Part shown: positions 17,683-38,694 of the stretch, piece after piece
Numbering within the stretch: the first letter of the stretch is position 1
Layout of the letters: each line of letters opens with the position of its first letter
The notes under the pieces: generated by a model
What the model was told of the DNA's origin: nothing
Databases searched by the model: none
Seen by the model: only the letters and a program-made list of their open reading frames with translations
Origin: Chloroflexi bacterium OLB13
GTDB lineage: Bacteria > Chloroflexota > Anaerolineae > Aggregatilineales > Phototrophicaceae
DNA length: 64,000 nt
Assembly (NCBI GenBank): GCA_001567485.1
Contig: JZRA01000068.1
Coordinates: 62,001 to 126,000 of the forward strand
Direction of reading: 5' to 3'
Program-made: the position numbers and the translations under genes

Positions 17683-20600
17683 CTATCGTCGCACGGACGA
17701 CGCGATCGTCCAGCCTTCGAACGGGTTGCGCGGCCGATCGACGCGGATGTAAACCCACTCGCCGCCCTCGGCCTCGGCCATCACGTAGACCTCTTGCCCC
17801 GCGCTCGCTGCGCCGACTCGGCTGAAGCCCGCGCCGGGGAACAGGCGGATGTTCGCGTTGGCGATCATTTCGCCGCGTGGCACGGCATCCGTCACCGCCG
17901 ACGCCGTGCGATACAGCGACCGCACCGTGATGTTGTTGAGGCAAATGGTCGAGCCGGGCGAGGCTTCGATCCCGACGAACCCGCTGAAATACTCGTCTTC
18001 GAACAGCTCGTATTCGCTGATTTGCAGGCCATCGAAGAACGTGCGAATCTTCTCGTTGTCGACTTCGGCACGCAGCACACCCCATTGACCGCTGCGGATG
18101 TTGACCGGGTACTCGCCCATGCCGAGTGATTGGCCGGTGGCGCGCAGCGTGAACTGCGACACGTTGCTGGCGCTGGCGTCGATCCGGTGCCGGATTCCGG
18201 TGCCGTCCTGCTGCATGCGCGTGATGATGTCGAACTGCCCGGCCTGATTGGTGCGGTACTGGAACTCGACCACGACCTCGTAGCTGCGCCAGCTCTCAGA
18301 CCCGAAGGTGAGCAGGGCGCTCTCTTCGCCGCCGACGCTGCACAACGTTGATTCTTCGTTGAACGGGCGGATTTCCCAGCCGCGCCGGGTGATGGCGTCA
18401 ATCTCGGAGTCAAAGCCGGACTGCGCCATAATTTGCAAGAAGCCCGGATCGCCGCTGAGCGGGTCGGTGTCGGTCGTCCCCGGCGCGGCGAGGGGCAGCG
18501 CGTTCACGTTGCCTTCGATGCGATAGCCGGTCGACTCGCGCAGAACCCAACCGTCACGGTCGCGCAGTTGAACCTTGTACCACTGACCGTCGGTCGTGAC
18601 GCCCAACACGACAAGCCGCGCGTTGGTCACATTGATCGCGGTCGCGGTCTGCCGCGGATTGTTGTAGATCAACAGCGGCCGCGTGCCGATTGCCATATAT
18701 ACGACGCTCGCGGCGGTTGGGCCTGCGGTGGGCGTCTGGGTCGGCGCCAGTGTCGGTGAGGGGGTGATCGTCGGCGGCACGGCCGTGACAGTTGGCGCGG
18801 CCGCGATCAGTGTGGGCAGCGGTTGAATAACGGCAATTACCTTGGGATCTGGGCGCCACGCCGCGCCGGTGTCATCGGTGCTGAACGTCAACTGCTTCAA
18901 CTCGCCGCTGCTGAGGTCGATCTGCCACAGGTCGAAGAGAGTGGAGTCTCCCCGCAGCGACTCGAAGATCGCCACCGATCCATCAGGCGCGACCGCCGGA
19001 TAGCCTTCTTCAAGAGTCGGCGTGTCCGTTAGCTTCGTAATCGTGCCGTTGTCCAACCGGTACGTGTAAAGATCGAAGCCGGCGTCATAGCCCTGATACA
19101 GGATCGCGCTTCCGTCTGGCAGCCATGTGGGATAGAACGCGCTTTGCGTGAGCACCTCTTGGTCGCTGCCGTCAAAATTCATCAGGCCCAAGCTGTTGAC
19201 GCCGGTTCGGGCTGTCGTGAATGCGATCTGCCGGCCGTCGGGTGACCACTTCGGCTCGTAGTCAAATCCCTGCGAATACGTCAGCCGCGTCAGGCCGGTG
19301 CCATCGGCACGGACGAGATAGATCTCCGACCCGGTCGGTTCGTCGGTGCGCGCTGAGAACACGATGTATTGACCATCAGGCGACCATGCGGGGCCGGATG
19401 GGATAGTGACGTCGGGTTGGCCGATGATCTTGCGCAATCCACCGCCGTCCGGTTGGATCGCCCACAGTTCTGCCACACCGTCATACGTCCCGACGAATGC
19501 GATTTCCGAGCCATCGGGCGCCCATGTCGGGCCGGTCTCGCTAAATACCGCGTCCGTGAGCTGATGAACAATCGTGCCTGTCCGGTCGGTCAGGTACAAG
19601 TCCATCGTGCCGGCGCGGCGCGACGCATACACGATCTCCAGCGCGGCAAAGTCGACCGTAGGCGAGGGCGTGACGGTCGGCGTCTCTGTGGGCGTATCGG
19701 TTGACGTTGCCGTGGGCGTTTTCGTTGCAGTCGGACTCGGCGTGATCGTCGCGGTCGCGGTGTTGGTCGCCGTCGCTGTGGCGGTGAAGGTCGGCGTGGC
19801 GGTCGCGGTATCGGTTGCGGTCGCCGTCGCGGTGTCGGTCGCCGTCGCGGTGTCGGTTGAGGTTGCCGTTGGCGGAACCTCGGTGGTTGTCGCAGTGGGC
19901 GTATCGGTTTGCGTGGCAGTCGCCGTGTTTGTCGCTGTATCTGTCGCCGTCGCGGAGGGAGTCGCCGTGTTGGTCGCCGTCCTCGTCGCAGTATCGGTCG
20001 CTGTGCTAGTTGACACTACCGTATTTTGTGGCGTATCGGTCGCGATGAGTACGAGGCCGCCTTCGGAGGTTGATGTCCCGCCGGGTGGTGCGGAAGGTGT
20101 TGGTGTGGCTGTATCTTGCGGCGTATCGGTCGCGATGAGCACGAGGCCGCCCTCGGAGGTTGACAGCGTGCCAATCAGCGCGACGTTTGTTGCGGTCGTG
20201 CTTTGTGACTGTGGCGTATCGGTGAGCGCCGGTGTATCCGTGCTCGCCACGCCCTCGGTAATGACCGTTGGCGGCACGACGATTGCGGAGGTATCGGTCG
20301 CGGTGGGGCGAACGTCCGCGTCGGTCGCGGTCGGGGTTGGCGTCTCCGTCTCGATGATCGTCAAGCCGCTGCTGGGTGTATCACTCACGTTGGCGACCAC
20401 GACCGGCTGCTCGTTACCACGGTTTCCAAGCAGAACAATCAGGATGGCGGCCAGCAGCACGATCACCACCAGTACGAGGTAGGTGATCGGATTTTTGTAG
20501 ATTGGAGTGGGCTGGGTAAGGCCGACCTGCTGCGAGGGCGGCGGCGTATGACCCGCGCCGGCGCCGCCAACCGTGCTGGAACGCGCCCCGGAGCGCTGTG

Positions 20601-21555
20601 CCGACGATCCACCGGGAGTGATCGGGGTCAGCGGGGCCAGACCGGGCGGACGCAGGCTGCGCGTCGGGATTTTGCTGGTGAAGAACGCGGTCGCTTCCCC
20701 TTTGGCGCCCTCAATCGCCGCCTCGAAAGACAGCGCGAACGCGGCCACCGACGGGAAGCGGTCTTCCGGTTCCTTCGACAGCGCGCGATCCAACACGATA
20801 TTGACCGCAGGTGGCAAGTCCGCGCGGTACGACTGAGCCGGCGTCGGCTGTTCGTGCAGGTGCTTGTGCAGCAGTTCGTACGGCGTGGCAGCTTCAAACG
20901 GAACGCGGCCCGTAATCATCGCGTAAACGAGGACGGCGAGCGCATACTGATCGGCGGCGGGTGTCAGCTCCTTGCCAGCCCACTGTTCCGGCGGCATGTA
21001 CGCGGGCGTGCCCATCGCCATGCCGGTGCCGGTCAGGCCGGACTGTGCGCCCATCAGCTTGGCGATGCCGAAGTCGACAAGGTAGCCATTCCCTTGATTG
21101 TCGAACATCACGTTGCTGGTCTTGATGTCGCGGTGGATCACACCCTGATTGTGCGCGTAGGCGAGGGCGCTGCTCAACTGCGCGACGAGCATCGCGGTCT
21201 CGCCCAGCGACGGCAGGATTTGCTGATTCTTATCATCGCGCTGATTGAGCCGTTGGGCCAGTGTGCCGCCGGTCAGCAGGCGCATAACGAGATAGCTCGT
21301 GCCCTGCTGCGTGCCGTAATCGAAAATGCTGACGATGTGCGGATGTTCCAGCGCGGCGGCGGTCTGTGCCTCGCGGTTGAAGCGCTCGACATAGCCGTGT
21401 TCGTTCGCCAGACTTGACGGCAGAACCTTGACGGCGACTTCTCGCTTCAAACTAGTTTGGAAGCCGCGATACACCGCGCCCATGCCGCCCACTCCGAGCA
21501 GCTCGCGCAGTTCATATTGGCCTAGCATGTGCCCAACAAGGTTCTCGTGGGCCAT
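17683..21555 (-). CDS. Receptor Ser/Thr kinase with TolB-like propeller and SH3-like repeats
   Basis: A 1290-residue one-pass membrane kinase. Residues 14-290 form a PknB-type kinase with all key residues: glycine loop G21-G26, K43, HRD with D143, DFG at D161, then GTPAYMPPEQW. One membrane helix lies near 357-377. Outside follow a Thr/Pro-rich linker (about 395-660), TolB/WD40-like blades (repeated WSPDG and WAPDGSEIAF), an SH3-like region (YKVQLRDRDGWVLRES), a LamG-like region and a last SH3-like domain. ATG at 21555 has GGGGGAA upstream. It follows the sister kinase by 74 bases in the same direction. It could sense wall fragments or polymers and phosphorylate FHA partners at 32994-38694. 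Confidence 0.9.
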   Translation of the reverse strand: MAHENLVGHMLGQYELRELLGVGGMGAVYRGFQTSLKREVAVKVLPSSLANEHGYVERFNREAQTAAALEHPHIVSIFDYGTQQGTSYLVMRLLTGGTLAQRLNQRDDKNQQILPSLGETAMLVAQLSSALAYAHNQGVIHRDIKTSNVMFDNQGNGYLVDFGIAKLMGAQSGLTGTGMAMGTPAYMPPEQWAGKELTPAADQYALAVLVYAMITGRVPFEAATPYELLHKHLHEQPTPAQSYRADLPPAVNIVLDRALSKEPEDRFPSVAAFALSFEAAIEGAKGEATAFFTSKIPTRSLRPPGLAPLTPITPGGSSAQRSGARSSTVGGAGAGHTPPPSQQVGLTQPTPIYKNPITYLVLVVIVLLAAILIVLLGNRGNEQPVVVANVSDTPSSGLTIIETETPTPTATDADVRPTATDTSAIVVPPTVITEGVASTDTPALTDTPQSQSTTATNVALIGTLSTSEGGLVLIATDTPQDTATPTPSAPPGGTSTSEGGLVLIATDTPQNTVVSTSTATDTATRTATNTATPSATATDTATNTATATQTDTPTATTTEVPPTATSTDTATATDTATATATDTATATPTFTATATATNTATATITPSPTATKTPTATSTDTPTETPTVTPSPTVDFAALEIVYASRRAGTMDLYLTDRTGTIVHQLTDAVFSETGPTWAPDGSEIAFVGTYDGVAELWAIQPDGGGLRKIIGQPDVTIPSGPAWSPDGQYIVFSARTDEPTGSEIYLVRADGTGLTRLTYSQGFDYEPKWSPDGRQIAFTTARTGVNSLGLMNFDGSDQEVLTQSAFYPTWLPDGSAILYQGYDAGFDLYTYRLDNGTITKLTDTPTLEEGYPAVAPDGSVAIFESLRGDSTLFDLWQIDLSSGELKQLTFSTDDTGAAWRPDPKVIAVIQPLPTLIAAAPTVTAVPPTITPSPTLAPTQTPTAGPTAASVVYMAIGTRPLLIYNNPRQTATAINVTNARLVVLGVTTDGQWYKVQLRDRDGWVLRESTGYRIEGNVNALPLAAPGTTDTDPLSGDPGFLQIMAQSGFDSEIDAITRRGWEIRPFNEESTLCSVGGEESALLTFGSESWRSYEVVVEFQYRTNQAGQFDIITRMQQDGTGIRHRIDASASNVSQFTLRATGQSLGMGEYPVNIRSGQWGVLRAEVDNEKIRTFFDGLQISEYELFEDEYFSGFVGIEASPGSTICLNNITVRSLYRTASAVTDAVPRGEMIANANIRLFPGAGFSRVGAASAGQEVYVMAEAEGGEWVYIRVDRPRNPFEGWTIASSVRR
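19660..20030. repeat. Low-complexity DNA coding the Thr/Pro/Ala linker of the first kinase
   Basis: Degenerate short repeats (units such as GTCGCGGT and GTATCGGT) encode about 120 residues of T-A-T-D-T type linker. The reverse frames are open by chance because of this composition and give false Val-rich proteins. Confidence 0.85.
20030..20163. repeat. 44-bp direct repeat in the kinase linker
   Basis: 20030-20073 and 20120-20163 are 44-base copies with two mismatches (both C/T), 90 bases apart. They encode two copies of STSEGGLVLIATDTPQ. This looks like a recent in-frame tandem duplication within the extracellular linker. Confidence 0.85.
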
Positions 21556-21629
21556 CGTTCCCCCAGATGTTACCGTGCCCCGCACATTAGTTTAACGCAA
21601 CCGGATTGCCCGGCAAGCGGTCATCCTCG

Positions 21630-24605
21630 CTAGGGCACAACCGGCAGCAGCACCGGTCGGCTCATCGTAATTCGTTCGACAACCCATCCGAGCGTGCCGT
21701 CGCTCAATTCGACCTGCCACCATGTGAACGCATCGGCCACTTCTGGCCCGCCGACAACCTGCACCTGCGTTCCCGATTCGAGCGTAGCGAGAACCTCGCC
21801 AGATACGCGGGCGGTCGCGCGGACGGCGACTGGACGGTCGATGTTTGGGCCGACTACAGCTGGACATCCAACCGTGACCGCAGCGCCGCAGTCACCTTGG
21901 CGTGGTTCACCGAGGTTGAGCAGTAGTTCAAAGCGACCAGTGGTGTTGCCTGCCGCGCCGCGGTAGCGGGTCGTGACTACTCGATATGTGCCATCTTCCG
22001 GCAGCCAGACGCCCGCAAGCTGACTGCGTGTCGCGTCCGAGAGCGAGATGTCGTCGTTCTCGGCGATCTTGCTACCGCTCGGCGCGTACAGCTCAAGGTA
22101 CGGGTCGAGGTTGCCGTCCAGCGCAGTCATCGTGATCGTCACGGTCGTTCCCTGACGCCCCTCGAACCAGTACGCCCGCATGGGGAAGGTCGAGTCGATA
22201 GTGTTGAACTGCGCCACGTCGACTTGCAGTTCGCCTTCGTTCAAGATCGAGACATCATAGGGGGCTGCATCGCCGGCCGTCAGGATCAGCACGTAATTCC
22301 CCGCCGTGTTGCCAGATTCGCCGCGGAACCGTTCAAGCTCAACTCGATACGTGCCTGCATCTTGAATCTGAAGATGCTCGACTACACTGTTGCTGGTTGA
22401 TACGCTGGCATCGTCGTTTTCCGCGATAAGCACGCCAGACGGGTTGATGACTCGCAGGTAGGTATCGAGATTGCCGCTGGTGGCATACACCGCAAGGCTG
22501 ATCTCGTCGCCGCTTTGCGCCTCGAATGCGTAGACTGCGCCGGGCATCTGGTCACCGAGCGTCCCGGTGGCTGGCTCACCCACCACGAGGACTGCAGTCG
22601 GCTGAGCGCTCTCATCCACCAGTGACAGCGTGAACTCGCCGATGGTGTTGCCCCGGGCGCCGAACAAGCGCGCGACAACGACCGTGTATTGGCCGTCGAC
22701 CGGAAGCTCGTAACTGAAGATGCCGGCGTTACGGGTGGTCTGCGCGAGGTCATCATTCTCGACCAGAACCGTGCCGTCCGGGCCGATGAGTGTCAGCACA
22801 AGGTCGAGGTTGGCCGCATCGTCGGTCTTTTCCGCAACAATGCTGACTACTTGGCCGGCCGTGCCATCAAACGGGAAGCGGTATTCTGGCGCGCTGTCCG
22901 TGATCGCATCATTCAGCGCTGAACCGAACGTGAGGCCGGTGCGAATGATCGGCTCTGGCGTTGGCGTGGGGGGCGGGGTGTTGGTCGCCGGCGGCGTCTC
23001 GGTGAGCGTCGCGGTTGGCGTGATCGACGGCGTGTGCGTCTCGGTGGGTTCCGGCGATGGCGTGATGGTGCTGGTCGCCGTCGGCGTATCCGTCGGGGCG
23101 TCGGTGGGTGTCAAGGATGGCGTGAACGTCTCGGTCGCCGTCGCCGTATGCGTTGGCGTCGTGGTGGCCGTAGCGGTCGGCGTCTCCGTTGGCGTCGCGG
23201 TCGGCGTATCGGTTGCGGTCTCGGTCGGCGTTGCCGTGAACTGCGACGCGATCAGCGTTTGCTGCTGGGCCGTGCCGGTAAACGCCGCGGCGACCGGGTC
23301 TTGCCTGCCACCCAGCGCCAGCACACCGACGACCGCCACTGCGACGACGGTGACGAGGATCGCGGCAATCACCGGAATCGGCAGTCCGAAGCTGCGCTTG
23401 GGCTGCTGAGGTGGAACGGCATAACCGCCGGTGTACGCTGCGCTCGGCGGGCCGCCTGCCTGCCCATACGGCGTCGGTGTGGATCCGGTGGGGTAGTACG
23501 GTGGCTGAGTTGGCGGCTGTCCGCCATAGCCACCCTGCGGCGTCGGCTGCTGCCCGTATCCGCCGGGCGCGGTCGGTGGCTGGCCGTAACCCCCGCTTGG
23601 AGGCGGCGCGTATTCGCCCGATGGCGGTGTGCCAGAAGTCGGCCCGGTCATCGGCTGCGGCGCGAACTCCTCGCCGTATGGGGTCGGCGTCATGCCGGAG
23701 GGGCGCGGCTTCTCTGAACGGAGCTTGTACGAGAAGAAGTTGGTCATCTCGCCTTGCATGCCCTCGATCGCACCCTCGAAGGACTGCGCGAACTGTGTGA
23801 CGTTCGGGAAGCGTTGGGCCGGCTCTTTCGCCATCGCACGGCTCAACACGATCATGACGGCGGTCGGGATATCGCCGCGGAGTGTCGTCAGCGGCGTTGG
23901 CTCTTCGTGAAAGTGCTTGTACATGAGCTGTGCGGCGCTGTCGGCCTCGAACGGCAGCCGGCCTGCGATAGTCTGGTAGATCGAGACTGCGAGCGCGTAT
24001 TGATCGGCCGCTGGCGTGAGTTCGCGCCCGGCCCACTGCTCCGGCGGCATGTAGGATGGGCTGCCCATCGCGACACCGGTGCCGGTGAGCGCGGTGGTCG
24101 CGCCCATGAGCTTTGCGATCCCGAAGTCGGTGACGTACGACCGGCCCTGATTGTCGAACATGATGTTGGCCGGTTTGATGTCACGGTGCAGCACGCCCTC
24201 GTTGTGGGCATAGTCAAGCGCGCTGGCGATCTGGTTGAGCATGTCGGAGACTTCGCCCAATGACGCGCGCGCCTGCTTCTGTTCTTCTCGCTGGGCAAGC
24301 CGTGCTGACAGCGAGCCGCCGCGCAGTAGGGCCATCACCAGATAACTGACATCCCCCTGCGTGCCATAGTCGTAAATGCGCACGATGTGCGGATGCTCAA
24401 GGGCGGCCGCTGTACGCGCCTCGCGGATGAAGCGCTCGACGTATCCCGGCTCGCTCGCAAGCGCGCGGGGAAGGACTTTCACAGCGACCTGACGATCAAG
24501 ACCGGTTTGATAGGCGCGGTACACCGATCCCATACCACCGACACCGAGCAGCTCGCGCAACTCGTACTGACCGAACGTTCGCCCGCTCAGATTCTCAAAG
24601 CCCAT
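21630..24605 (-). CDS. Receptor Ser/Thr kinase with three PPC-like domains and SH3-like tail
   Basis: A 991-residue one-pass membrane kinase. The kinase domain (about 14-290) is complete: G21-G26 loop, K43, HRD with D142, DFG at D160, GSPSYMPPEQW. A Pro/Gly/Tyr-rich cytosolic stretch (300-405) leads to a membrane helix near 408-432. Outside lie a Thr/Pro linker, three pre-peptidase C-terminal-like beta domains (about 545-890; repeated phrases LDLVLTLIGPDG, LDTYLRVINPSG, LDPYLELYAPSG each followed by AENDD or VENDD) and an SH3-like end (WWQVELSDGTLGWV). Its kinase domain is very close to that of the gene downstream, so the two arose by duplication. It is divergent from the WXG100 genes. Confidence 0.9.
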   Translation of the reverse strand: MGFENLSGRTFGQYELRELLGVGGMGSVYRAYQTGLDRQVAVKVLPRALASEPGYVERFIREARTAAALEHPHIVRIYDYGTQGDVSYLVMALLRGGSLSARLAQREEQKQARASLGEVSDMLNQIASALDYAHNEGVLHRDIKPANIMFDNQGRSYVTDFGIAKLMGATTALTGTGVAMGSPSYMPPEQWAGRELTPAADQYALAVSIYQTIAGRLPFEADSAAQLMYKHFHEEPTPLTTLRGDIPTAVMIVLSRAMAKEPAQRFPNVTQFAQSFEGAIEGMQGEMTNFFSYKLRSEKPRPSGMTPTPYGEEFAPQPMTGPTSGTPPSGEYAPPPSGGYGQPPTAPGGYGQQPTPQGGYGGQPPTQPPYYPTGSTPTPYGQAGGPPSAAYTGGYAVPPQQPKRSFGLPIPVIAAILVTVVAVAVVGVLALGGRQDPVAAAFTGTAQQQTLIASQFTATPTETATDTPTATPTETPTATATTTPTHTATATETFTPSLTPTDAPTDTPTATSTITPSPEPTETHTPSITPTATLTETPPATNTPPPTPTPEPIIRTGLTFGSALNDAITDSAPEYRFPFDGTAGQVVSIVAEKTDDAANLDLVLTLIGPDGTVLVENDDLAQTTRNAGIFSYELPVDGQYTVVVARLFGARGNTIGEFTLSLVDESAQPTAVLVVGEPATGTLGDQMPGAVYAFEAQSGDEISLAVYATSGNLDTYLRVINPSGVLIAENDDASVSTSNSVVEHLQIQDAGTYRVELERFRGESGNTAGNYVLILTAGDAAPYDVSILNEGELQVDVAQFNTIDSTFPMRAYWFEGRQGTTVTITMTALDGNLDPYLELYAPSGSKIAENDDISLSDATRSQLAGVWLPEDGTYRVVTTRYRGAAGNTTGRFELLLNLGEPRQGDCGAAVTVGCPAVVGPNIDRPVAVRATARVSGEVLATLESGTQVQVVGGPEVADAFTWWQVELSDGTLGWVVERITMSRPVLLPVVP
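22955..23245. repeat. Low-complexity DNA coding the linker of the second kinase
   Basis: Degenerate GGCGT/GTCGGCGT-type units encode the extracellular Thr/Pro linker of the kinase (PTATPTETPTATAT style). There are no palindromic repeats or unique spacers, so it is not a CRISPR array. Confidence 0.8.
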
Positions 24606-25576: not shown

Positions 25577-25873
25577 ATGGATAAGGTTCAGATGAAATAT
25601 GAGGAACTGGAGCAGATCGCTACTCGCCTTGCCGAGTGGTCGAGCCGCACCCAAGCTGCCGGGCAGAAATTCCGCCAACAGTTTCAGGTTCTGCAGGGCG
25701 GTGGCTGGATCGGCCGCGGCTTCGATAAGTTCGCCGACGAGTCTGAGAGCCTGCTCCTGCCCGCCGTTCAGAAGTTGGAAGATGCACTCGAGCAGGTCTC
25801 GAACATCATCCGCCAGTCCGTCGAACGCATGCAGCAGGCCGAAGAAGAAGCGCGCGGGCGCTTCAACTTCTAA
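25577..25873 (+). CDS. WXG100-type protein 1 (ESAT-6-like)
   Basis: 98 residues, all helix with a central turn holding W44-I45-G46 (GGGWIGRG), the WxG hallmark at its normal place and the normal length for the family. WXG100 proteins form four-helix dimers exported by type VII systems. There is no Y-x-x-x-D/E tail; the C-terminus is QAEEEARGRFNF. A good ribosome site (AAGGAGAGG) precedes the ATG. It is the first of four small genes, 31 bases before the next. Likely partner: protein 2, which has the RDxD tail but no Trp. Confidence 0.9.
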   Translation: MDKVQMKYEELEQIATRLAEWSSRTQAAGQKFRQQFQVLQGGGWIGRGFDKFADESESLLLPAVQKLEDALEQVSNIIRQSVERMQQAEEEARGRFNF

Positions 25874-25904: not shown

Positions 25905-26201
25905 ATGGCCGACAAGATCCAGATGGATTACGACGCCGTACAGCAGATGGCAGAGATCGCCAAGCAGACGGCAGACGAACTGGAAGAAATGGTGGGATCG
26001 ATCAAGGCGATCAGCGATCAACTCGATGGCGGTGTCATGCTTGGCCGTGCGGGCCGCGTGCTGTCCGATGGTCTTGGTGAGCGCCTCGCCCCGGCGGTGT
26101 CGCGCTTGGCTCAGAAGTTCAGCGAAGTCTCGCTCGATCTGGTTGGCGCGCTGACCGACCTGCGCGACTCGGATCAGGCCGCTGGCGGCTTCTTCGGTTA
26201 A
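25905..26201 (+). CDS. WXG100-like protein 2 with degenerate WxG
   Basis: 98 residues, helix-turn-helix like protein 1. In the turn, GGVMLGRAG replaces GGGWIGRG, so the Trp is lost while the Gly stays. Near the C-terminus L86-RDS-D90 aligns with Y87-RDG-D91 of protein 4, the place of the YxxxD export motif in known substrates. GAGGAG precedes the ATG. The pairing with protein 1 is inferred from gene order and from the complementary motifs. Confidence 0.85.
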   Translation: MADKIQMDYDAVQQMAEIAKQTADELEEMVGSIKAISDQLDGGVMLGRAGRVLSDGLGERLAPAVSRLAQKFSEVSLDLVGALTDLRDSDQAAGGFFG

Positions 26202-26225: not shown

Positions 26226-26555
26226 ATGTTCGGAATTCTGCTTAGCTTCGTTCGCAGTCAGGTCGACAACCTGCTGCAAAATGCCACCAAAGAGGTGGAT
26301 CGCCTGCAAGACGAGGTCCTCAGCGGACTGCGTAATGCGATGAACCCGCTCTCTGGCGGGGGGTGGACCGGCCAAGGCGCCGAGAAGTTCTACGATGAGA
26401 TGGAGAGTGTGGTGTTCCCGGAGATCATGTCGATCATGACCGGCGGCATCAGCTTCGTGGGCGCGTTCCAGAACGCGGCCAACATCATCGAGCAGGCCGA
26501 TGAAGCCATCAGTGGCCTAATCGGCGGCGTTGTCGACGCGTTCGACATCTTCTAA
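26226..26555 (+). CDS. WXG100-type protein 3
   Basis: 109 residues. The helical hairpin has W47-T48-G49 in SGGGWTGQG. It is slightly longer than the others and ends in a glycine-containing hydrophobic tail (SGLIGGVVDAFDIF). It starts 24 bases after protein 2 with GAGGAGG upstream. It repeats the type of protein 1, so the operon appears to carry two WxG/non-WxG pairs. Function as secreted partner or chaperone is by family only. Confidence 0.88.
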   Translation: MFGILLSFVRSQVDNLLQNATKEVDRLQDEVLSGLRNAMNPLSGGGWTGQGAEKFYDEMESVVFPEIMSIMTGGISFVGAFQNAANIIEQADEAISGLIGGVVDAFDIF

Positions 26556-26595: not shown

Positions 26596-26895
26596 ATGGC
26601 AAGCCCAGATGTGAGTATGAACATCCCCGATGTCGAGAGCATGGCCAAGACGTTCGACACCATGGCCGACGTCGCCAAGGCGATCTCGAAGGCGCTGAAG
26701 ATCATCATCACCACCCTGAAGGCGATGGCGTTCATCAGCATGGGCGCAACGACCGCGCTCGAGCAGTTCCTGTCCCGCATTCAGCCGCGCATCGAGAAAC
26801 TCGGTGAGAAGTTCGAGGAACTCAGCGGCGATCTGGACGGCGCGATCCGCAGCTACCGCGACGGTGACAACACCGGGTCGCAGCGCTTCGCCTAA
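26596..26895 (+). CDS. WXG100-like protein 4 with YxxxD tail
   Basis: 99 residues, helical hairpin. No Trp at the turn (MAFISMGATT). The second helix closely matches that of protein 2: KLGEKFEELSGDLDGAI against RLAQKFSEVSLDLVGAL. It ends with Y87-R-D-G-D91, an exact YxxxD motif of the kind that targets type VII substrates. AGGAGG lies before the ATG and a strong terminator follows the stop. It is the best candidate in the operon for carrying the export signal of a heterodimer. Confidence 0.85.
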   Translation: MASPDVSMNIPDVESMAKTFDTMADVAKAISKALKIIITTLKAMAFISMGATTALEQFLSRIQPRIEKLGEKFEELSGDLDGAIRSYRDGDNTGSQRFA

Positions 26896-26988: not shown

Positions 26989-28074
26989 CTAACCGAGCAG
27001 CGCCGTCAGCAGCTGAAGCAGCACGATCAGAAGCGTGCCGATAATCGCCGCGGTAATCAACATCCGCCGCGTGATCCGCCGCTTCTTGCGTTCAGGCGGG
27101 GCGTCGCCGTACAGACGCCGGATCTCGTGCGCGAATGTCGGGACATCCTGCTGGCGCATTTCCGGGCGGGCGGCAAGCGCGTTGCCCACGAATACGGACG
27201 TCTCGCGGTAGTTCTTGCCTTCGGGTGAGATGGGCAGGTCACTGCGATGCAGCGCGGCCACCATACCCTCGATCACTTCGCGCCGAACCATGTCCAACCC
27301 GCGCGAACGAGACGGATAGGCAGGGCGTCCTGCCAGCATCTCGTAAAACAACGCGCCCAGACCGTACACATCCGTACTCCGGGTTGGCGGCTGACCCCGA
27401 ACAAGCTCAGGAGCTGTATAGGAGATGCCAGAGATCAGCTCGGCGGCGCTGGCGCTGGTGACCGGATACCCGAAGTCCATCAGGATCGGACGCGGGATGT
27501 CATCCTGATCGTTGCGGACATAGACGGCGGCCGGGCTGATGTTGAGGTGCAGCGTATCGTTCTCGTGCATGAAGGCTACGGCGTCCGCGACCTGCATCAT
27601 GATCCACGCCGCGTGTTGATACCACGGCTGCGGCTGGCTGTGCAGAAGGTCGCTGAGGAAACGGCCGTGCACGTACTCAAACACCATGTAGTACTTGGTC
27701 TCGTTTTGGAAGCCGACCTTGCCGTAAGGCCGTTCCGCTACTGACGCCGTGCGGTACGGCGCGACGAGAACCGGCAGGGCGTAATGCTGCCGCTTGCCGA
27801 CGAGCTTCAGCAGGGTCTTGGCTTCATGGCGGAGCTTATCCTGCGCGACCGGCGTGCTGTGCGCGACTTTCGCCAGCAGGCGATCTTCGCCGCGCTTGGC
27901 CTCGTAGATAGCGGCGGTACGGGTGACGGTCAACCGGCGCAGAATTTCCATGTCGCCGAGCGTGTCACCGGTGTCCAGCACAAGGGGCTTCTCCTCGGCT
28001 AAACAGTTCTGCTCTGTGCACCACAGGTTGCCATCTGGAGAAATGCGCTCACAGAATGTGCAGACATACTTCAT
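26989..28074 (-). CDS. Membrane pseudokinase with N-terminal zinc-binding motif, EssB-like in layout
   Basis: 361 residues. Four Cys (C5, C8, C19, C24) form a probable zinc site. A kinase fold spans about 40-325, and K69, the DFG at D200 and the APE-like APEL are kept. HRDIKPxN has become HLNISPAA, losing the catalytic Asp (N178), Lys and Asn, and no glycine loop is visible, so it should not transfer phosphate. A basic stretch and one membrane helix (338-360) end the protein. AAGGAGGT precedes the ATG at 28074. Firmicute type VII systems use EssB/YukC, a membrane pseudokinase, as a core part; this gene, divergent from the EccC-type gene, may fill that place. Confidence 0.8.
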   Translation of the reverse strand: MKYVCTFCERISPDGNLWCTEQNCLAEEKPLVLDTGDTLGDMEILRRLTVTRTAAIYEAKRGEDRLLAKVAHSTPVAQDKLRHEAKTLLKLVGKRQHYALPVLVAPYRTASVAERPYGKVGFQNETKYYMVFEYVHGRFLSDLLHSQPQPWYQHAAWIMMQVADAVAFMHENDTLHLNISPAAVYVRNDQDDIPRPILMDFGYPVTSASAAELISGISYTAPELVRGQPPTRSTDVYGLGALFYEMLAGRPAYPSRSRGLDMVRREVIEGMVAALHRSDLPISPEGKNYRETSVFVGNALAARPEMRQQDVPTFAHEIRRLYGDAPPERKKRRITRRMLITAAIIGTLLIVLLQLLTALLG

Positions 28075-28094: not shown

Positions 28095-28123
28095 TTGACA
28101 AGGATTCGGAATGGCGACACAAT
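28095..28123 (+). promoter_or_regulatory. Promoter of the EccC-type gene
   Basis: TTGACA (28095-28100), 17-base spacer, CACAAT (28118-28123), in the divergent region. The -35 is consensus and the -10 moderate. The start would fall near 28130, with a leader of about 70 bases. Confidence 0.5.
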
Positions 28124-28134
28124 AGACTCATCTA

Positions 28135-28200: not shown

Positions 28201-31200
28201 ATGGCGACGCAGTCCCAGCCTGTCTTGATCAACCGGCCACCGCGCATCCAGCCCGACCTACCGCAGGCCGAGTTTGAAGTTCCGCCGCCGCCGGAGCTGG
28301 AACTTGGAAACATCACGCTGATTCAGTCGTTTCTCCCGTTAATCACCATTATCGGGTATGTCATCGTTTCCGCAACTGGCAGCGGGCGCAACCTCGCGCT
28401 GATCATCCCGATGGGCTTGTCGGTCGTGGCGTCGTCTGGCCTCGCGTTTTTGGACGTACATCCGCGAGACGCGTGAACAACAGCGCCAGCGGGAGAGCTA
28501 CGAGGCGCGCTTGGCAACGCTTCGCCGTGAGATGGAGGGGTATCACGATCAGCAGCGCACGTTTTACTACTACAACTATCCCAACATGGAACGTGTGCTG
28601 GCGATTGCCGAGAATCAAGAGCGCGGAACGAAGGACAATCGTTCCGGTACGCGCCTTTGGGAGCGCCGCACCACCGACCCCGACTTCGGCGCTGTCCGTC
28701 TTGGCGTCGGCACGCAGCCCTCGACGGTCAAATACACATTCCAAGCCGAGGCCAACAACGAAGATCCGATGATGTACGCGGCGATGAAGCTCGCCGAGGA
28801 CTCGCTGAACGTGACGGACATCCCCGTTGCGATCCCGCTGCGCCCGTACAGCACCGACCCCAACGCGACCGATGGCATCGTCGGCCGTCATTCGATTGGC
28901 GTTACCGGCTCGAATCCGCAAGAGGTGTACGACTTCGTGCGGGCGCTGCTGGTCAACTTCACGGCATTCCATGCGCCGACCGATACACGCCTATATGTGT
29001 TTGGCGACCCGAGCGACGAGACGAATTGGAACTGGGCGCGTTACCTGCCGCACAGCAACTCCGGCAATAAGACCGAGCCGGGCGACCAGTTGTGCTTCAG
29101 CCCGCGCCAGTCCGCGGTCGAATCGTTCTGGGACATGATGATTAAGAGCGATCTCGAGCGTCGCTTGGTTCGCTTGGCTGATGACTCCAGCACCGACGTG
29201 ACCCTGCCGTTCCTGTTGGTCGTGGTTGACCAGCTTTCGATCGAGAGCAACCCGAACAGCATCGCGAAAGGCGCCGACACGCAGGAAGCGGCCTCGCTGA
29301 TCTTCCGGCGCGGCCAAGAACTCGGCGCGACGATCATCTTCCTCGTGCCGGACGCGAAGTACATCCCGAGTCAATGCGAGACGGTGATCGAGGTTGACTC
29401 CGAACCCAACTTGCGCGGCGAGGTCTCCGCCTACGGCCAGAAGCAGGGCACGCTGTTCCGCTACACCGAGGTCGGCGTGAACACTCGCCGTGTCATCGGC
29501 GTGGCCGACACGTTGAAGGCCGAGACCGCGATGAGCACCTTCTCGCTCAAGCTGAGCAACCTGTCGGTGCGGTCGACGTTCGGCACCGCCGGCTTGCCCA
29601 ACGACGTGCGTCTGCTCAACCTGCACGACCACATTATGCCCGAACGGCTCGACGCTTCGGCGGACGGGATATGGGAGAAGTGGCGCAAGAGCCGCGAGGC
29701 CACCGCGGCGGAATGGCTTCGCGTTCCGATTGGCTTCTTGCCGGGACCAAAGCGGCGCGATCTGTTGTTCAGCGCCAACGGCGACGGCGTTCACGGCATG
29801 ATCGCTGGCACGACCGGTTCCGGCAAGTCGGAGCTGTTGATTACGCTGATCCTCGGCATGGCGATGAAGTACGACCCCAGCGTGATCAACTTCGTGCTGG
29901 TCGACTACAAGGGCGGTACCGCGTTCAAGATGTTCGAGCGTTTGCCGCATGTGGTGAACCTCGTCACCAGCTTGCAGGGCAACGCGGGAGCCCGCACGTT
30001 CATCGCGCTGCAATCCGAAATGAAGCGTCGCGCGAAGATGCTGGCCGATCAGGGCGTTCCGCACATCGTGGACTACCGCGAAAAGGGGTATCACCGCACC
30101 GATCTGCCGATGGCGCCGGAGACGAAGGTCAAGCACAAACCGTTCCCGTTCTTGTTTGTCATCATCGACGAGTTCGCGGAAATGGTGAAGGAGATGCCGC
30201 AGTTCAAGGCGGATCTTGACTCCGTCACCCGCCTCGGCCGCGCTTACGGCGTCACGCTCATCCTCGCGACACAGCGCCCGACCGGCGCGGTCACGGATCA
30301 GATGCGCGCCAACATCAAGTTCAAAATCTGCCTGCGCGTAGAAACCGCCGAAGACAGCCGTGAGCTGCTGCGCGCCTCGGACGCGGCCTTCCTGCCTACC
30401 GGCGTGCCGGGCCGCGCGTACCTGATGGTCGGCAACGACAGCCCGCAGCTGATGCAGGTCGCATACGCCAGCTACAACTACATCCCCCCGACCGCCGACT
30501 CGATCGAGGAAGAGAAGCCACCGGTCATCAAGTGGTTCGACCGGCCCAAGAAGAAGGAAAAGAAATCAGCGAGCGCGGCCAGCTTGCGTACCGTGGCCGA
30601 CCGCGTTGTCGAGATTTGCGCCGCGCTGGCGATTGAGAAGCCAGATGTGGTCGAACAGGAGAAGCCGTGGCCTGATCCGCTTCCGGTGCAGCTTCCGCTG
30701 AATGCCGAGTACATCACGTCGGCGATGCAGCGCATGCCGAAGGTCTCCGACATCTTCGCCGATGAGGAGAAAGAGCCTGAGATCGAGGCGGCGGATGAAG
30801 TCGTGGACGATAACCCGATGTTCCCCCTCAGCCGCAACCTGAAGCCGTGGATCGACGAGATCATGCGGCAAGCCAGCGGGCGCTCCAACGGCGTGACCGA
30901 GACCACGACCATGATGGCCGATGGCTCGGAACGCTGGCCGCACGTGGATTGGTCGAGTGATGAGGCGCTCTCAGGACGCATCGGCATGATCGACGATCCG
31001 TACCATGCGCGCCAGCTTCCGCTCGACCTCGACCTGAAGGCGGGCAGCGTGCTGGTTTACGGGGCGTCAGGCAAGGGTAAGACGGGCTTCCTGCGCACAC
31101 TGATCACCAGCCTTGCCGTGCGGCACTCGCCCGATGCGCTGTGGATCTACGCGTTCGACTTCGGCGGCGGCGGCTTGACCCCGATCGAGAACCTGCCACA

Positions 31201-32992
31201 CGTCGGCGCGGTGATCGACAGCGAGGAGAACGAGCGGGTGACGCGCCTGCTTAACCGCTTGAAGCAGTGGGTGCGCGAGCGCGCCGAGTTGTTCGGCGGC
31301 GACAGCCTCAGCGTTTACAACCGCACGCATCCCAACGCGCAACAGCCGGCGGTGCTGGTCGTTCTCGACAACTACGCCGAATTCCGGCAGCGTTACGAGG
31401 ACGCCGGCGTCGAACTGGCGTCGCTTCTGCGCGAGGGCGCCAGCAAGGGTATATTCTTCGCGGTCACAGCCGATCAGCTCTCGACCGTGCCCGGCCGTAT
31501 TGCCGGCTTATTCAACCAGCGCCTGTCGCTCAAGCTCTCCGATCCGAGCGAGTACAGCGGGATCGTCGGGCGTGTGCCAGCGGATCTCGACGACATCCCC
31601 GGCCGGGGGTACATCCCGTTTGAGCGCGCCGTGCTTGAGTGCCACATCGCGAAGCCGCTCAGCATCGACCTGCGCACCGCCGAGGGTGAGCCAGCGGACG
31701 AAAGCGTTCAACTCGCAGCGTTGGCTGAGGCGATGAACACGGCGTGGACGGGGCAGCGCCCACAGCCGGTCGAGACCCTCGAGTCGATTGTCGCGCTGCG
31801 TGACATGACGCCGTTGGCATCCGAGCGCCGGATCGAGATCATGCTGGGCAAGGCGCTCCATGATCTACAGCCGATTGCGCTCAACCTGAAGGAGCAGGGG
31901 CCGCATTTGGTGATTGGCGGCTCACCGCTCAGCGGACGCACCACGACCCTACGCTCGATGGTTCTCAGCCTTGCCGACCGGTATGCTCCCGACCGGCTTG
32001 GCATCATCCTGATCGACGCCCAGAAGCGGATGTTCGAGTTTGCAGAAGGGAAGTCGCTCGCGAACCTGCCGCACGTGCGCGCTGCCATCAGCGAGCAGAA
32101 CCGTGAGATGATCGACCCGCTGATCGAATCCCTGCGCGCGTTGTATACGTCCGAAGGCTCCGCCAACCGGCCAGAGCTGTTCATCTTCATCGACAACTAC
32201 GACGACTTCAGCGATCTGTTCGACCGCAAGGCCAAGCCGTTGACCGACTTGGCGAACCTCGCGCGGCGTTACGGTTCGGACGGCCTGCACTTTGTGATCG
32301 GGATGGGCGCGTCACCCACCGAAGACCTGCTCAAAGTGATCACACGGTCAAAGGTAGGCTTAGCGCTCGACCCGGAGGCGGCAGGCAAGGCTCCGTTCAA
32401 CCTGACGGCGGCGGGTAAGCTGGCGCGCAACACGTATCCCGTTGGCCGCGGCTTCTTGATCGGGTCGGGCCGCTTCACGATCGTGCAGATCAGCACGCCG
32501 TATCCCATCGAGAACGCCGATGAGATTCAGGACTCCACCGAGCTGCAGGCGATGATCAACGTCCAGTTGGGTCAGTACGTCGATGATGTCATGGCGAAGT
32601 GGGATGGAGCGCCGCAGTGGGATTTCCAGATCAAGGCGCCGGAACCCGGTGAATCGAACGGCGCCGCGCCGGAGCGTAAGTCAAGCGGTGGCGGATCGTC
32701 CGCATCGGGTGCAGCCTCCGGCCCGGTATTACCGGCGGAGTATGCGGCGAAGCTGCGCGACGCGCTGAAAGAGATCGCGCCAATCGCCGGGATCGACATG
32801 GCCGTGATTAGCCAGCTCGAAGGGGCCGATCTCCTTCGCATGGCGTCGTCGTTCGAGGACATGGTCGACCTCGTGGCGCTGGCCGCCGAGGCCAAAGTCA
32901 AGCCGGAGGCGCTGCTGCCGGTGTTCATGGGGTACGGCATGACCGAAGAGGACGCGCGCAAGGCGCTGGGCCTGAGCACGGAGAAGGCATAG
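28201..32992 (+). CDS. EccC/EssC-type FtsK-SpoIIIE triple ATPase, frameshifted at a T-run
   Basis: The motor of a type VII-like secretion system. ATG at 28201 has GAGGGAG upstream. Two membrane helices lie at about 38-60 and 65-84. The frame breaks at TTTTT (28447-28451): removing one T joins it seamlessly to the long frame, giving 1596 residues. Module 1 has a full Walker A (K542) and DE (D656-E657). Module 2 keeps Walker A (K960), but the Glu is N1057. Module 3 has Arg in place of the Walker Lys (R1246) and DN (D1331). The family uses module 1 for work and the others to bind substrate. The C-terminal 90 residues are helical and follow a Gly/Ser linker. If the extra T is real, the gene makes only a 91-residue membrane stub. 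Confidence 0.9.
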
Positions 32993-32993
32993 C

Positions 32994-33620
32994 ATGAACG
33001 ACTACATTACGATGATGATCTCGTCGGATCAGTTCGACGACAAACCCAATCACAACGTCGAAGTGCTGGCCGATGTGCCGATCAAGACGATCATCTACGA
33101 AATCCAGAAGGAGTTTCAGCTCAAGGGCGCGTTTGCGCTTTGGACGCGCAACGGCAAGCAGGAACTGGACGCCAACCGGACTCTGCGCGAGCTGAATATC
33201 TCGAAGGGCGCCGAGTTAGAGTTTGGCCGGCGCGCGATGCGTATTCCACCGGGCGCAGAGGAGATCACCGGCACGCAGCGCGGTGTACTCAAGGTTGAGG
33301 GGACGACCCGCTCGTTCATGCTGGCGTGGCAGCCCGCGCTGATCGGCCGCAGCACCGACGCGGCGAGCGCGGCCCAGCTTGCGATCGACCTGCGCGATCT
33401 TGACTCGAACAAGACGGTGTCGCGCCAGCACGCCCGCATCAACGAGGCTGAAGGCGAGTACTTGATCCAGCGCGTCGCGGAGAACAATCAACTCATCGTC
33501 GACAACAAGCCGTTGGGGTATCTGGCTCCGGTTCCGCTGAAGCCCGGAAGCGTGATCAAGCTCGGCAACGTGTCGCTGGTGTTCCAGATCGAAGAGATCG
33601 CGGACGAACTGCTGGTCTGA
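32994..33620 (+). CDS. Ubiquitin-like (YukD/EsaB type) and FHA domain fusion
   Basis: 208 residues. Residues 1-80 have a ubiquitin-like pattern (ITMMISSDQF, then IKTIIYEIQKEF and TLRELNISKGAELEF), as in YukD/EsaB and the N-terminus of EccD. Residues 98-198 form an FHA domain with the phosphothreonine-binding residues G118-R119-S120, S143-R144-Q145-H146 and N164-N165. It lies one base after the EccC-type stop, so it is co-translated. It probably links the secretion ATPase to Thr-phosphorylated partners made by the nearby kinases. No membrane helix, so it is cytosolic. Confidence 0.85.
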   Translation: MNDYITMMISSDQFDDKPNHNVEVLADVPIKTIIYEIQKEFQLKGAFALWTRNGKQELDANRTLRELNISKGAELEFGRRAMRIPPGAEEITGTQRGVLKVEGTTRSFMLAWQPALIGRSTDAASAAQLAIDLRDLDSNKTVSRQHARINEAEGEYLIQRVAENNQLIVDNKPLGYLAPVPLKPGSVIKLGNVSLVFQIEEIADELLV

Positions 33621-33632
33621 TGTCCGGTTCGT

Positions 33633-35605
33633 TCACCCCGAAGGCGACGGCTCAGCGGTTGGCTCAGCCGTCGCTTCGCTTTCTGGCGTACCCGGCGTCG
33701 TGCTGCCGTCAGGTGTTGCGGGCAGCGGCGGCGGAATGATCGTCGGAACGTCGTTGGGATCGCCGAGGAAGCGAACCGCGTCGGACTCGATCAGCCCCGC
33801 CGAAATCCAGCCTTCGCCCCGGCGTGAACGGATCTTGTACCAGTTTTTGTCCGGCGAGACGCCCGTCACGACTACCAGCTCGCCTTTTGGCACCGGCGAA
33901 CGCAGCGGCGCGTCGGGATCGGCGGTGCTGTACACACGAATCCCAACGTCGATCAACACCTCGAACTGCGGCTGAACGTCCTCGATCAGCCACCAGAAGC
34001 GCCGGCCCGCGAGCACATCTGGCGCTAGATAGACCAGCACATAGTGACTGCCCGCGTCCAGCGGATTAGGCTTTGTAATGTTGTCGTAACGGCGCTGGAT
34101 CATGCCCTGATAAATCTCGATTGGGGGCGCGTTCGGGACATCGTAGCTGGTGACCGTCACCAAATCGAGCGCGCTCTCAGGCGTGCCTTGCAGAACCCAA
34201 TAGTCCACGCTGAAGGTTGACGTCGGCGTGGGCGGCAGGGTAGGGCTGGGCGGCGGGGTGTTGGTCGGTGTCGCTGACGGCTCAGGCGTGTCAGTTGCCG
34301 TGGGCAGCGCGGTCGGTGACGCGGTGGGCGTGGCGCTAGAAGTCGCCGTCGCGGTCGCTGTTGGCGTCGCGGTCGCGGTGGGTGATCCCGTTGCGGACGC
34401 GGTGCGCGTCGGTGACGCGGTGCGGGTCGGCGATGCGGTCGGAGTCTTGGTGTTCGTTGCTGTGGCCGTGGGCGTCGCGGTTGCGGTCGCGTGGCGGATG
34501 GACGCCGTGTCGGACGATGAGTCGGCTCGGAGGTGTCGGTCGCCGTCGCCGTATCGGTCGGAGTCGCGGTGCGGGTCGCCGTTCGAGTCGGGACGCTCGT
34601 ATCAGTCGCGGTTGGAGAGGGAGACGGCGTATCTGACGGAAGGACTTCGATGCCACCAGCGGCGTGTGTCTGAGTCTGCGCCGCGGCGATCTCCGTAGTC
34701 AGGGCAGCGGTGGTCGGCACGGGCAGCACGGGGGCCAATGTGTTTGCGCCGCCGCGCCCCGCGAGCACGGCCACCGCGCCAATCGCCACCAGCAGGACGG
34801 CCAGCAGCCCTAACAGCGGCCACAGCCAGCGGCGCTGCGGCTTGACCGTCCGCGTCGAGCCGATAATCACCGTGACGTTGTCGGGCGCGCCGCCCCGCAG
34901 GGTCAAGTCGATGAGCGTCTTGACGGCGCGCTCCGGTGGCTGCTTGGTGACCGTCTCCTGAATGACTTTTTCGCTGATGACATCCCACAGACCATCGCTG
35001 CACAGGATGAACACGTCGCCGGGTTCGACCGTCATCGGCTTATAGATCGTGTCCAACTCGAAGGGATGCCCGATGAAGGCTGTGATGTTCATATTGCGCG
35101 AGGCCGATGCTTGTTCCGGCGTGATCTCGCCGCGTTCCAGCATCGCCGCGTTGACGCTCTGGTCTTTGCTGACCATGGTCATCGTCTCGCCGCGCAGCAG
35201 ATACACGCGCGAGTCGCCGAGATTAAAAACCAGCGCGGTACCGTCTGACCGGATCACGACACCGGCGGCGGTCGTGCCGATATACACCATGCCGAGTGAG
35301 GTGGCGGCTTTGCGCACTTCGGCGTGGGCCGCTTCGAGCGCCTGCTGCACGCGGGCCTGCGTGTCTAGCTCGCTGTTGTTCTCGTCATAGTACGTCTTGA
35401 AGAAGAACTCGACGGCAGTACGGCTCGCGAGATCGCCTTTGCCGACGCCGCCCATGCCGTCACAGACCAGCAGGACAGCGCCGAAACGCGATTCTGGCGA
35501 TCCCGGCTCAGGCAGCAGCCAACGCATACTGTCCTCGTTGCGCTGCCGTTTGCGACCGACATCGGTTCCACCGGTGATCGTGAACGAGATCGCTTTGGGA
35601 TCCAA
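33633..35605 (-). CDS. PP2C Ser/Thr phosphatase with membrane helix and SH3-like tail, frameshifted in linker
   Basis: Residues 1-240 form a PP2C domain with all metal ligands: RNEDS (D25), VCDGMGG (D49), LCSDGLWD and [10 protein letters not shown] membrane helix lies near 258-280, then a Thr/Pro linker. Within 34490-34540 the frame slips: adding one base restores a T-A-T-P linker and leads into the frame ending at 33633, with an SH3-like domain ([19 protein letters not shown]). The repaired protein has about 657 residues; the Arg/Pro-rich end otherwise read is out of frame. It starts 5 bases after the VWA/FHA gene. It should reverse the action of the locus kinases. Confidence 0.85.
34230..34640. 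repeat. Low-complexity linker-coding DNA in the phosphatase gene
   Basis: Short GTCGCGGT/GGTGACGCG-type units encode the Thr/Pro/Ala linker between membrane helix and SH3-like domain. The frameshift of the gene lies inside it, where base-calling or slippage errors are likely. Confidence 0.75.
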
Positions 35606-38600: not shown

Positions 38601-38694
38601 GGTTGTTTTGCTGTGCTGCGCCGGGTGACGCCATGATGAAGAATCCCGCGGCAAGCGCATAGAACCACGTAGTGATTCGGGTTAGCCGACGCAC
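35611..38694 (-). CDS. VWA-FHA membrane protein of the type VII-like locus
   Basis: 1027 residues. A signal peptide (cleavage near GAAQQ) is followed by a von Willebrand A domain with a full MIDAS (D102-A-S104-G-S106), then three to four Ig-like beta domains split by Thr/Pro linkers (TPTFTVTPSITPTPT style). A membrane helix lies at about 808-831. The cytosolic tail ends in an FHA domain (about 925-1025) with G951-R952-S953 and S969-R-A-H972. DEPTIRPGG in the tail may be a phospho-site. So the protein can bind ligands outside and phosphothreonine inside. It is first in a two-gene unit with the PP2C phosphatase, and convergent with the EccC and Ubl-FHA genes. Confidence 0.88.
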   Translation of the reverse strand: MRRLTRITTWFYALAAGFFIMASPGAAQQNNPVAINVSFAEVTDGPNEATSLGLFFTVNDANGDAIDPGSARQAIIQLEDGTRTEARVEETNSPLFVVIVLDASGSMGGAADTMRQAAITAVQNLPDGTRFSVMTFNRQISTATDFSQDKNGVINTIAQYAPANPNDPNAGTCLFDATFAAMQKATEIPLPNRRSVMLFTDGRDELIAGGELDPCSSRTLDEVVARASDVANPVNVYAIGLTGGIPIAQGELQRITDSSNGLAVFGNLDALPAMFERIVASLRNQRVARGDVCITRGQHTATLLVQAGGVGGASLADSINFVTNFECIPATPTPEIAPEVNIDSATFDPVTDTITFVLSAAGEDQIEEYRVEAVDRDGGTIASFVQNAPISGPISFSAANAPDGNVEITVRAIRRDGTTAADAERTVRVPRPTATFTRTATFTPSPTITPTPRPRSANIDSIQYNRDTDEVMVNLLYREIAEIARIRISIFDENNTLVRSIEPPSLSDQVLFAGRDAGLKPGARYTVRVQALDGGGSVLNESTQEFTYVPILSPTPTFTVTPSITPTPTEVIIRAAIDAVTFDANTQQFVLRIAYENPERIDTIEIDVLDSNNLLVDTISVPVDEVVTYTPGSKLIGQQQYTFSIKAINLDGRVVDRQVRQFTDPRTSTPTPSQTPTETLTPTITPTPTVTPVVVNLTLNPPVEDAATQSLRVEYVSSNPDAVDRYTLVLVQRSGSNIITEQSFIPSEETFRTISMSEVPSGEYTLTLAAFDDKNNELATASITFRWTKPEPTATPTPPGLVDRIRENPILGAVVGLIVLILVGVLVWLLLSGRRERSKRQNTSASLPSQTGAFIIPQMPQAPKPSGDQPKTTPPAGPVKQAGADTKPNFLDEPTIRPGGPDSFATNAAIDIGEATGAAPVVSGYLIIRESRDESLVGRTITLSKSPFYIGRSGPRNNDLNIDGDKNLSRAHCELIYDRNTWYVIDSGSQLGTTVNDGANITGRVPLSEGDVIKLGGTTVIAFTRRG

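Follow-up and report, generated by a model that had tools for sequence, protein, structure and literature searches.

A predicted membrane-anchored pseudokinase with a PknB-like fold as a probable scaffold subunit of a Chloroflexota T7SS

A gene on the minus strand of the window (the whole 64,000-nucleotide stretch of DNA that was analysed) encodes a protein that we interpret, with a probability of roughly 70%, as a catalytically dead scaffold, a membrane subunit of a Chloroflexota type VII secretion system (T7SS), and not as an enzyme. This reading draws on the loss of the Asp and Asn of the HRD loop, a PknB-like predicted fold, a C-terminal membrane helix and genomic linkage. The name PSK is used below for both gene and protein. 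T7SS have been described mainly in Actinomycetota and Bacillota, and published work on them mentions only a limited number of WXG100 sequences from Chloroflexota; a search of the open-access literature returned no description of a Chloroflexota T7SS or of the PSK family, and such descriptions may exist elsewhere. The PSK cluster would represent a syntenic Chloroflexota T7SS in which one membrane subunit is a dead kinase. T7SS with kinase-fold subunits in the membrane are already known, and PSK would add a dead-kinase variant with PknB as its closest match.

Sequence features and predicted fold of PSK

The gene and the elements recognized in its product are as follows.

26989..28074, minus strand: PSK, one-pass membrane pseudokinase, 361 aa, begins MKYVCTFC
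28003..28062, minus strand: four-Cys N-terminal motif CX2C-X10-CX4C, residues 5-24 (Cys 5, 8, 19 and 24), a putative zinc knuckle
27868..27870, minus strand: beta3 Lys69 (VAIK position), invariant in 50/50 relatives
27823..27825, minus strand: aC Glu84, invariant in 50/50 relatives
27604..27633, minus strand: signature PQPWYQHAAW, residues 148-157, strongly conserved, a candidate partner-binding surface
27526..27549, minus strand: degenerate catalytic loop HLNISPAA in place of HRDxKxxN, residues 176-183
27469..27477, minus strand: DFG motif, D200-G202, Asp invariant in 49/49 relatives
26995..27069, minus strand: C-terminal membrane helix, residues 336-360 (hydrophobic 338-356, 5-residue tail), after basic KKRRITRR

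By inspection of the sequence, AAGGAGG stands immediately ahead of the ATG. A longer form of 380 aa starting at 28131 was considered and is probably unused, because the relatives of PSK begin at the same MK as the 361-aa form.

Against Pfam, PSK matches PF00069 (Pkinase) with 72.9 bits, the curated cut-off being 31.7, and also PK_Tyr_Ser-Thr; against NCBIfam it reaches 79 bits with PknB_PASTA_kin, far under the equivalog cut-off of 450. A profile search of PDB sequences placed PknB ahead of other kinases. The AlphaFold2 model, built with 28 sequences (pLDDT 88.1, pTM 0.85), superimposes on PknB (3ori) in VIA-align with Z 27.5, rmsd 2.3, 248 aligned residues and 24% identity, and PknB precedes the other Hanks kinases in both VIA-align and Foldseek. 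As modelled, PSK is a full-size PknB-like Hanks-type kinase fold of ~290 aa. The sequence-only reading had proposed such a structure prediction with a fold comparison to EssB; the outcome is PknB-like, and EssB/YukC chains are absent among the best fold matches listed, although a remote likeness could lie further down.

Conservation was counted in 50 distinct PSK relatives, 49 of which could be scored at the HRD loop and the DFG motif. The HRD Asp is kept in none of the 49, being replaced by N, C, G, A or S; the catalytic Lys survives in a single relative (1/49), and no relative (0/49) has the Asn that binds Mg in this loop. The earlier claim that this loop reads HLNISPAA, with Asp, Lys and Asn all replaced, is therefore correct for residues 176-183 and, for Asp and Asn, extends to the whole family. 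The glycine loop is likewise missing, as had been stated: GxGxxG is absent and the corresponding stretch is RRLTVTRTAAIYEA. The same reading had named, as evidence against itself, a firm placing with active PknB kinases that have an alternative catalytic Asp. The fold of PSK does fall firmly with active PknB; its catalytic loop, however, has no such Asp: position 182, which is Asp or Glu in most relatives, is Ala in the window protein. The retention of the beta3 Lys, the aC Glu and the DFG Asp had gone unmentioned; a pure scaffold would not usually keep an invariant K-E-D triad.

The single membrane helix that had been described as ending the protein is a family trait, present in 46/46 complete relatives, the sole exception being a sequence that ends at a contig edge. 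Only a short tail follows it, as in the relatives, so that there is no extracellular domain; by the positive-inside rule, the kinase domain would be cytoplasmic. The signature PQPWYQHAAW lies at the beginning of the helix 152-171. The N-terminal zinc site proposed earlier stands only in part. The four Cys are present in PSK and all four are kept in 42/50 relatives, but the motif is lost in one clade of eight (8/50; L022, L023, L025-L030), and the site is thus not universal in the family. That clade mostly retains the flanking ITPxFxxWG pattern, and the segment may therefore do more than bind metal.

The gene cluster and its distribution

PSK lies in a cluster, 17683 to 38694, that comprises two kinases, four WXG100-type genes, PSK, EccC, UblFHA, an SH3-like ORF, a PP2C phosphatase and a VWA-FHA protein; the tested genes outside these limits are metabolic or transport genes.

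17683..21585, minus strand: Ser/Thr kinase, intact HRDIKTSN
21630..24605, minus strand: Ser/Thr kinase, intact HRDIKPAN
25577..25873, plus strand: WXG100 protein a (PF06013, 2e-11)
25905..26201, plus strand: WXG100 protein b (PF06013, 2.6e-6)
26226..26555, plus strand: WXG100-like protein c (PF06013 3.1e-4, TIGR03930 1.1e-6, both under cut-off)
26596..26895, plus strand: WXG100-like protein d (Pfam 0.002, second profile search 1.8e-5, both under cut-off)
28201..28476, plus strand: EccC N-terminus, with a hydrophobic membrane segment and without FHA, in another frame than the remainder in the assembly
28511..32992, plus strand: EccC/EssC FtsK/SpoIIIE ATPase body, three FtsK stretches (PF01580, 1.8e-66)
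32994..33620, plus strand: UblFHA, ubiquitin-like and FHA fusion (FHA, 7e-11)
34157..35605, minus strand: PP2C phosphatase of Stp1 type, with a probable frameshift in its C-terminal tract
35611..38694, minus strand: VWA and FHA protein, syntenic in many PSK loci

The EccC body scores 608 bits against TIGR03928, whose cut-off is 778. A one-base frame change near a T5 run, somewhere from about 28452 to 28511, breaks EccC in two; both parts are in a single frame in the same-genus relatives L038 and L039, and the assembly is probably at fault, though the mutation may be real. The PP2C ORF terminates in a Pro/Arg-rich tract that resembles a frame change in a repeat, and the overlapping SH3-like ORF (33633-34208) may be the true PP2C C-terminus. 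The EccB profile PF05108 had no match, but it had none in any control genome either. The kinase matches that PADLOC returned, to PD-T4-6 among others, are generic and no evidence of defence. Elsewhere in the source genome, a long protein (L153, G000:C65:7740-8000) begins with a WXG100 domain, continues with a linker rich in Gly and has additional C-terminal sequence, which makes it a candidate T7SS substrate; a further WXG100 pair is found at G000:C36 (L154).

PSK and EccC are divergent here, with starts at 28074 and 28201, as the sequence-only reading had it. The face-to-face promoters that it added find no support: with divergent starts the promoters would be back-to-back, and the promoter scan gave a single sigma70-like site, for EccC (28095-28123), with none upstream of PSK. 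Nor is the divergent promoter region a defining trait, because PSK and EccC are co-directional in other Chloroflexota, where the order VWA - WXG100 - PSK - EccC - UblFHA occurs in L071-L073, L076-L078, L081 and L082.

Relatives of PSK, most of them full-length, were found in 30 of the 151 genomes of the order; with this spread and the Pkinase score, chance is no explanation for the reading frame. A scan of GTDB contigs with the single protein found no relatives, and a broad alignment (A1) offered no conserved stretch usable for contig search; a narrower one (A2) yielded 27 named loci. These are titled Chloroflexota, Anaerolineae or related, except for one MAG labelled Bacteroidetes (L083), which carries a cluster of Anaerolineae-type sequence and is probably misbinned or mislabelled. 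By profile search, PSK also occurs in further classes of Chloroflexota, again as a neighbour of WXG100 and EccC. The same-genus genome G080 carries a second, divergent PSK-type gene (L131:4719-6122) near a PP2C and a small active kinase, and L079 has, in addition to PSK, a small kinase-like gene of the kind found near that second copy.

EccC is in the same cluster as PSK in 17/20 fetched loci and 23/27 named loci, two sets that overlap in some genomes. The linkage extends to the WXG100 and UblFHA genes and spans several families and classes; most often PSK directly adjoins the EccC N-terminus, and in most loci WXG100-like protein d adjoins PSK. Other kinases near EccC mostly have an intact HRD motif. 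EccC is present in 30/30 genomes with PSK as against 51/151 in the order overall (hypergeometric 3e-18, relatedness ignored), and PSK without EccC was not found among the 151 genomes. In two genomes scored as lacking PSK, the gene is cut at a contig end. In G006, G057 and G072, which have a close EccC and are 69-89% complete, no PSK was found beside it, and because of these three PSK may be dispensable somewhere and may not be needed in every such system. Giant EccC ORFs (about 2,850-2,960 aa) were observed at L074:1283-9844 and L125:10357-19227; they contain seven FtsK/SpoIIIE stretches, as against three in the EccC of the window. EccC is of similar size in several other PSK loci.

A second kinase family and a possible docking role

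Fifteen genomes of the order carry only a second EccC type, about 33-39% identical to the EccC of the window, and all 15 encode a kinase of another family, AKN (loci L132-L152), with an intact HRDxKPxN. AKN sequences from L112 (12695-13840), L118 and L124 have the layout of PSK, with kinase domain, linker and C-terminal membrane helix. In G001 and G143 about 1 kb separates the AKN gene from EccC, and in G108 about 4 kb; in the remaining genomes the AKN gene is farther away or on a different contig. The shared layout, the co-occurrence with the second EccC and the closeness to EccC in these three genomes raise the possibility, worth entertaining but doubtful, that PSK arose from AKN by loss of catalysis, both systems having had a common ancestral kinase subunit. 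The trees recover PSK and AKN as one clade each (support 100), and a sister grouping of the two is not rejected (p-AU 0.24 to 0.80, with unstable placements and long branches). In the careful tree, however, PSK groups with small phosphatase-linked kinases and not with AKN, a placement that long branches make unsafe, and the N-terminal Cys motif is absent from the AKN sequences of L112, L118 and L124. An AKN ancestry concerns the origin of PSK and is compatible with its being a scaffold today.

The likely partner of such a scaffold would be UblFHA. In the structure model of this protein, residues 1-85 adopt a SUMO/ubiquitin fold (Z about 12) and residues 92-203 an FHA fold, with Z 14.7 to a phosphothreonine-dependent FHA domain and Z 13.3 to the FHA domain of FhaA from its complex with MviN (3oun). 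In 22 UblFHA sequences the core residues Gly118, Arg119, Ser143 and Arg144 never vary, and at least 90% of the sequences also have His146 and Asn165. In T7SSb, the FHA region is fused to the ATPase EssC/YukB and binds the pseudokinase domain of EssB/YukC (PMC9600267), which is why the FHA domain of UblFHA suggests itself as the partner of PSK; in the Chloroflexota system EccC has no FHA, and this domain is instead carried by the ubiquitin-like protein. The T7SSa counterpart of the ubiquitin-like part is the EccD domain, which sits on the first EccC ATPase.

We therefore propose the following as a working model. PSK would be a phosphotransfer-dead, membrane-anchored kinase-fold subunit of the Chloroflexota T7SS, the cytoplasmic kinase domain of which serves as a docking platform, as that of YukC does; by binding the FHA domain it may hold UblFHA, thereby EccC, and perhaps the WXG100 cargo, at the membrane. 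The assembly could be gated by the two active-looking kinases of the cluster together with PP2C, in the manner of the MviN pseudokinase and FhaA. Binding between those two proteins depends on phosphorylation. Such gating may apply here because the FHA domain of UblFHA keeps its phosphothreonine-binding residues, whereas the FHA domains of EssC have lost the site (PMC9600267, PMC11217815). Examination of the alignment by eye revealed no conserved Thr on PSK that would explain phospho-dependent FHA binding.

The K-E-D triad invites a different view of what the domain does, namely that PSK binds ATP without hydrolysing it and acts as an allosteric switch, a conformational change gating EccC or UblFHA. 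We consider this fairly unlikely. In its favour, none of about 50 sequences departs from the beta3 Lys, the aC Glu or the DFG Asp although the catalytic residues are lost, a pattern suggestive of nucleotide binding that has been kept. EssB/YukC, by contrast, has neither the VAIK nor the DFG residues (PMC12599244) and does not bind ATP (PMC9600267). Against this, PSK has no glycine loop and has lost the Mg-binding Asn, so that any affinity could be low or Mg-independent, and the triad could also persist for the stability of the fold. It is likewise an unlikely, if attractive, proposition that a nucleotide site is under selection here, whether for an ATP-gated switch in EccC assembly or for an enzyme of kinase fold that carries out another reaction, such as AMPylation, on one of the T7SS components. 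Retained nucleotide binding, if true, would be the most interesting outcome.

Comparison with known kinase-fold subunits

A role comparable to that of EssB/YukC, the T7SSb subunit of Bacillota, had been suggested for PSK from the sequence alone, and this has been borne out: across Chloroflexota, a one-pass pseudokinase is tied to EccC and WXG100. That PSK works like EssB/YukC is well supported by genomic context and topology, as both are one-pass proteins with a cytoplasmic, catalytically degenerate kinase fold and both are encoded with EccC/EssC, WXG100 and ubiquitin-like genes. These shared features could also mean that PSK is a remote EssB/YukC ortholog, inherited with the EccC/WXG100 core and stripped of its extracellular domain, but such descent appears improbable. 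On sequence criteria PSK does not belong to the EssB/YukC family PF10140: hmmscan gave no match to this profile at E<=1, and it exceeded its cut-off in 0/101 genomes of the order, while the B. subtilis control was positive. The nearest match by sequence and fold is PknB, and the full-size domain differs from the kinase-fold domain of YukC, which has about 204 residues (PMC9600267). YukC has an extracellular domain (residues 244-384), whereas in PSK the membrane helix is at the very C-terminus and there is none. The residues lost are different as well: at three kinase motifs EssB reads LDMR, Ytfvlapd and TRG, the VAIK and DFG residues being gone (PMC12599244), whereas PSK keeps K-E-D and has the N-terminal four-Cys motif. 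The Pkinase/PknB match, the lack of a PF10140 match, the full-size fold, the missing extracellular domain and the loss of other residues favour a separate origin, and the independent recruitment of a kinase fold proposed by the sequence-only reading, from PknB-type kinases, is accordingly likely, though not proven. Hanks kinases are numerous in Chloroflexota (22 matches in the source genome), but it is hardly credible that PSK is just another kinase-like protein of regulation or sensing that lies near the T7SS by chance, since it forms a single, fully supported family, is linked to EccC over several families and classes and was not found without EccC in the order.

The closest published topology, compared by description only, is that of TshM of T7SSh, a putative kinase-like protein with a single C-terminal membrane helix and no extracellular domain, in a system whose ATPase also lacks FHA (PMC11217815). 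TshM differs in that it was described in Bacillota, where its gene lies close to those of a Tad pilus, and in that the ubiquitin-like protein of its system is separate and accompanied by an EspG chaperone (PMC11217815). Like PSK, the subunits TscD, TsdD and TseD of T7SSc-e are membrane-bound and of kinase fold, and T7SSc, like the PSK cluster, carries vWA and PPM phosphatase genes; they differ from PSK in the conserved active site of TscD and in the large C-terminal regions found in TscD and TsdD (PMC11217815). AKN, in being active, resembles TscD/TsdD/TseD more than PSK does, and the systems with PSK and AKN parallel T7SSb, with its inactive EssB, and T7SSc, with its active TscD. If this interpretation is true, T7SS took up kinase-fold subunits on more than one occasion, and the subunits also lost their activity repeatedly. 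With the PSK/AKN pair it becomes testable what the kinase fold does in T7SS, whether it phosphorylates or docks to partners of the FHA and ubiquitin-like kind.

Beyond T7SS, MviN (Rv3910) with FhaA resembles PSK with UblFHA in pairing a membrane pseudokinase with an FHA protein; unlike PSK, MviN is a peptidoglycan precursor flippase and not part of a T7SS. The PknB-type Hanks kinases remain the closest to PSK by sequence (79 bits) and fold (Z 27.5), from which PSK differs in lacking the glycine loop, the HRD Asp, the catalytic Lys and the Asn. By profile and fold PSK is a member of the Hanks superfamily, but it does not have the residues of an active enzyme.
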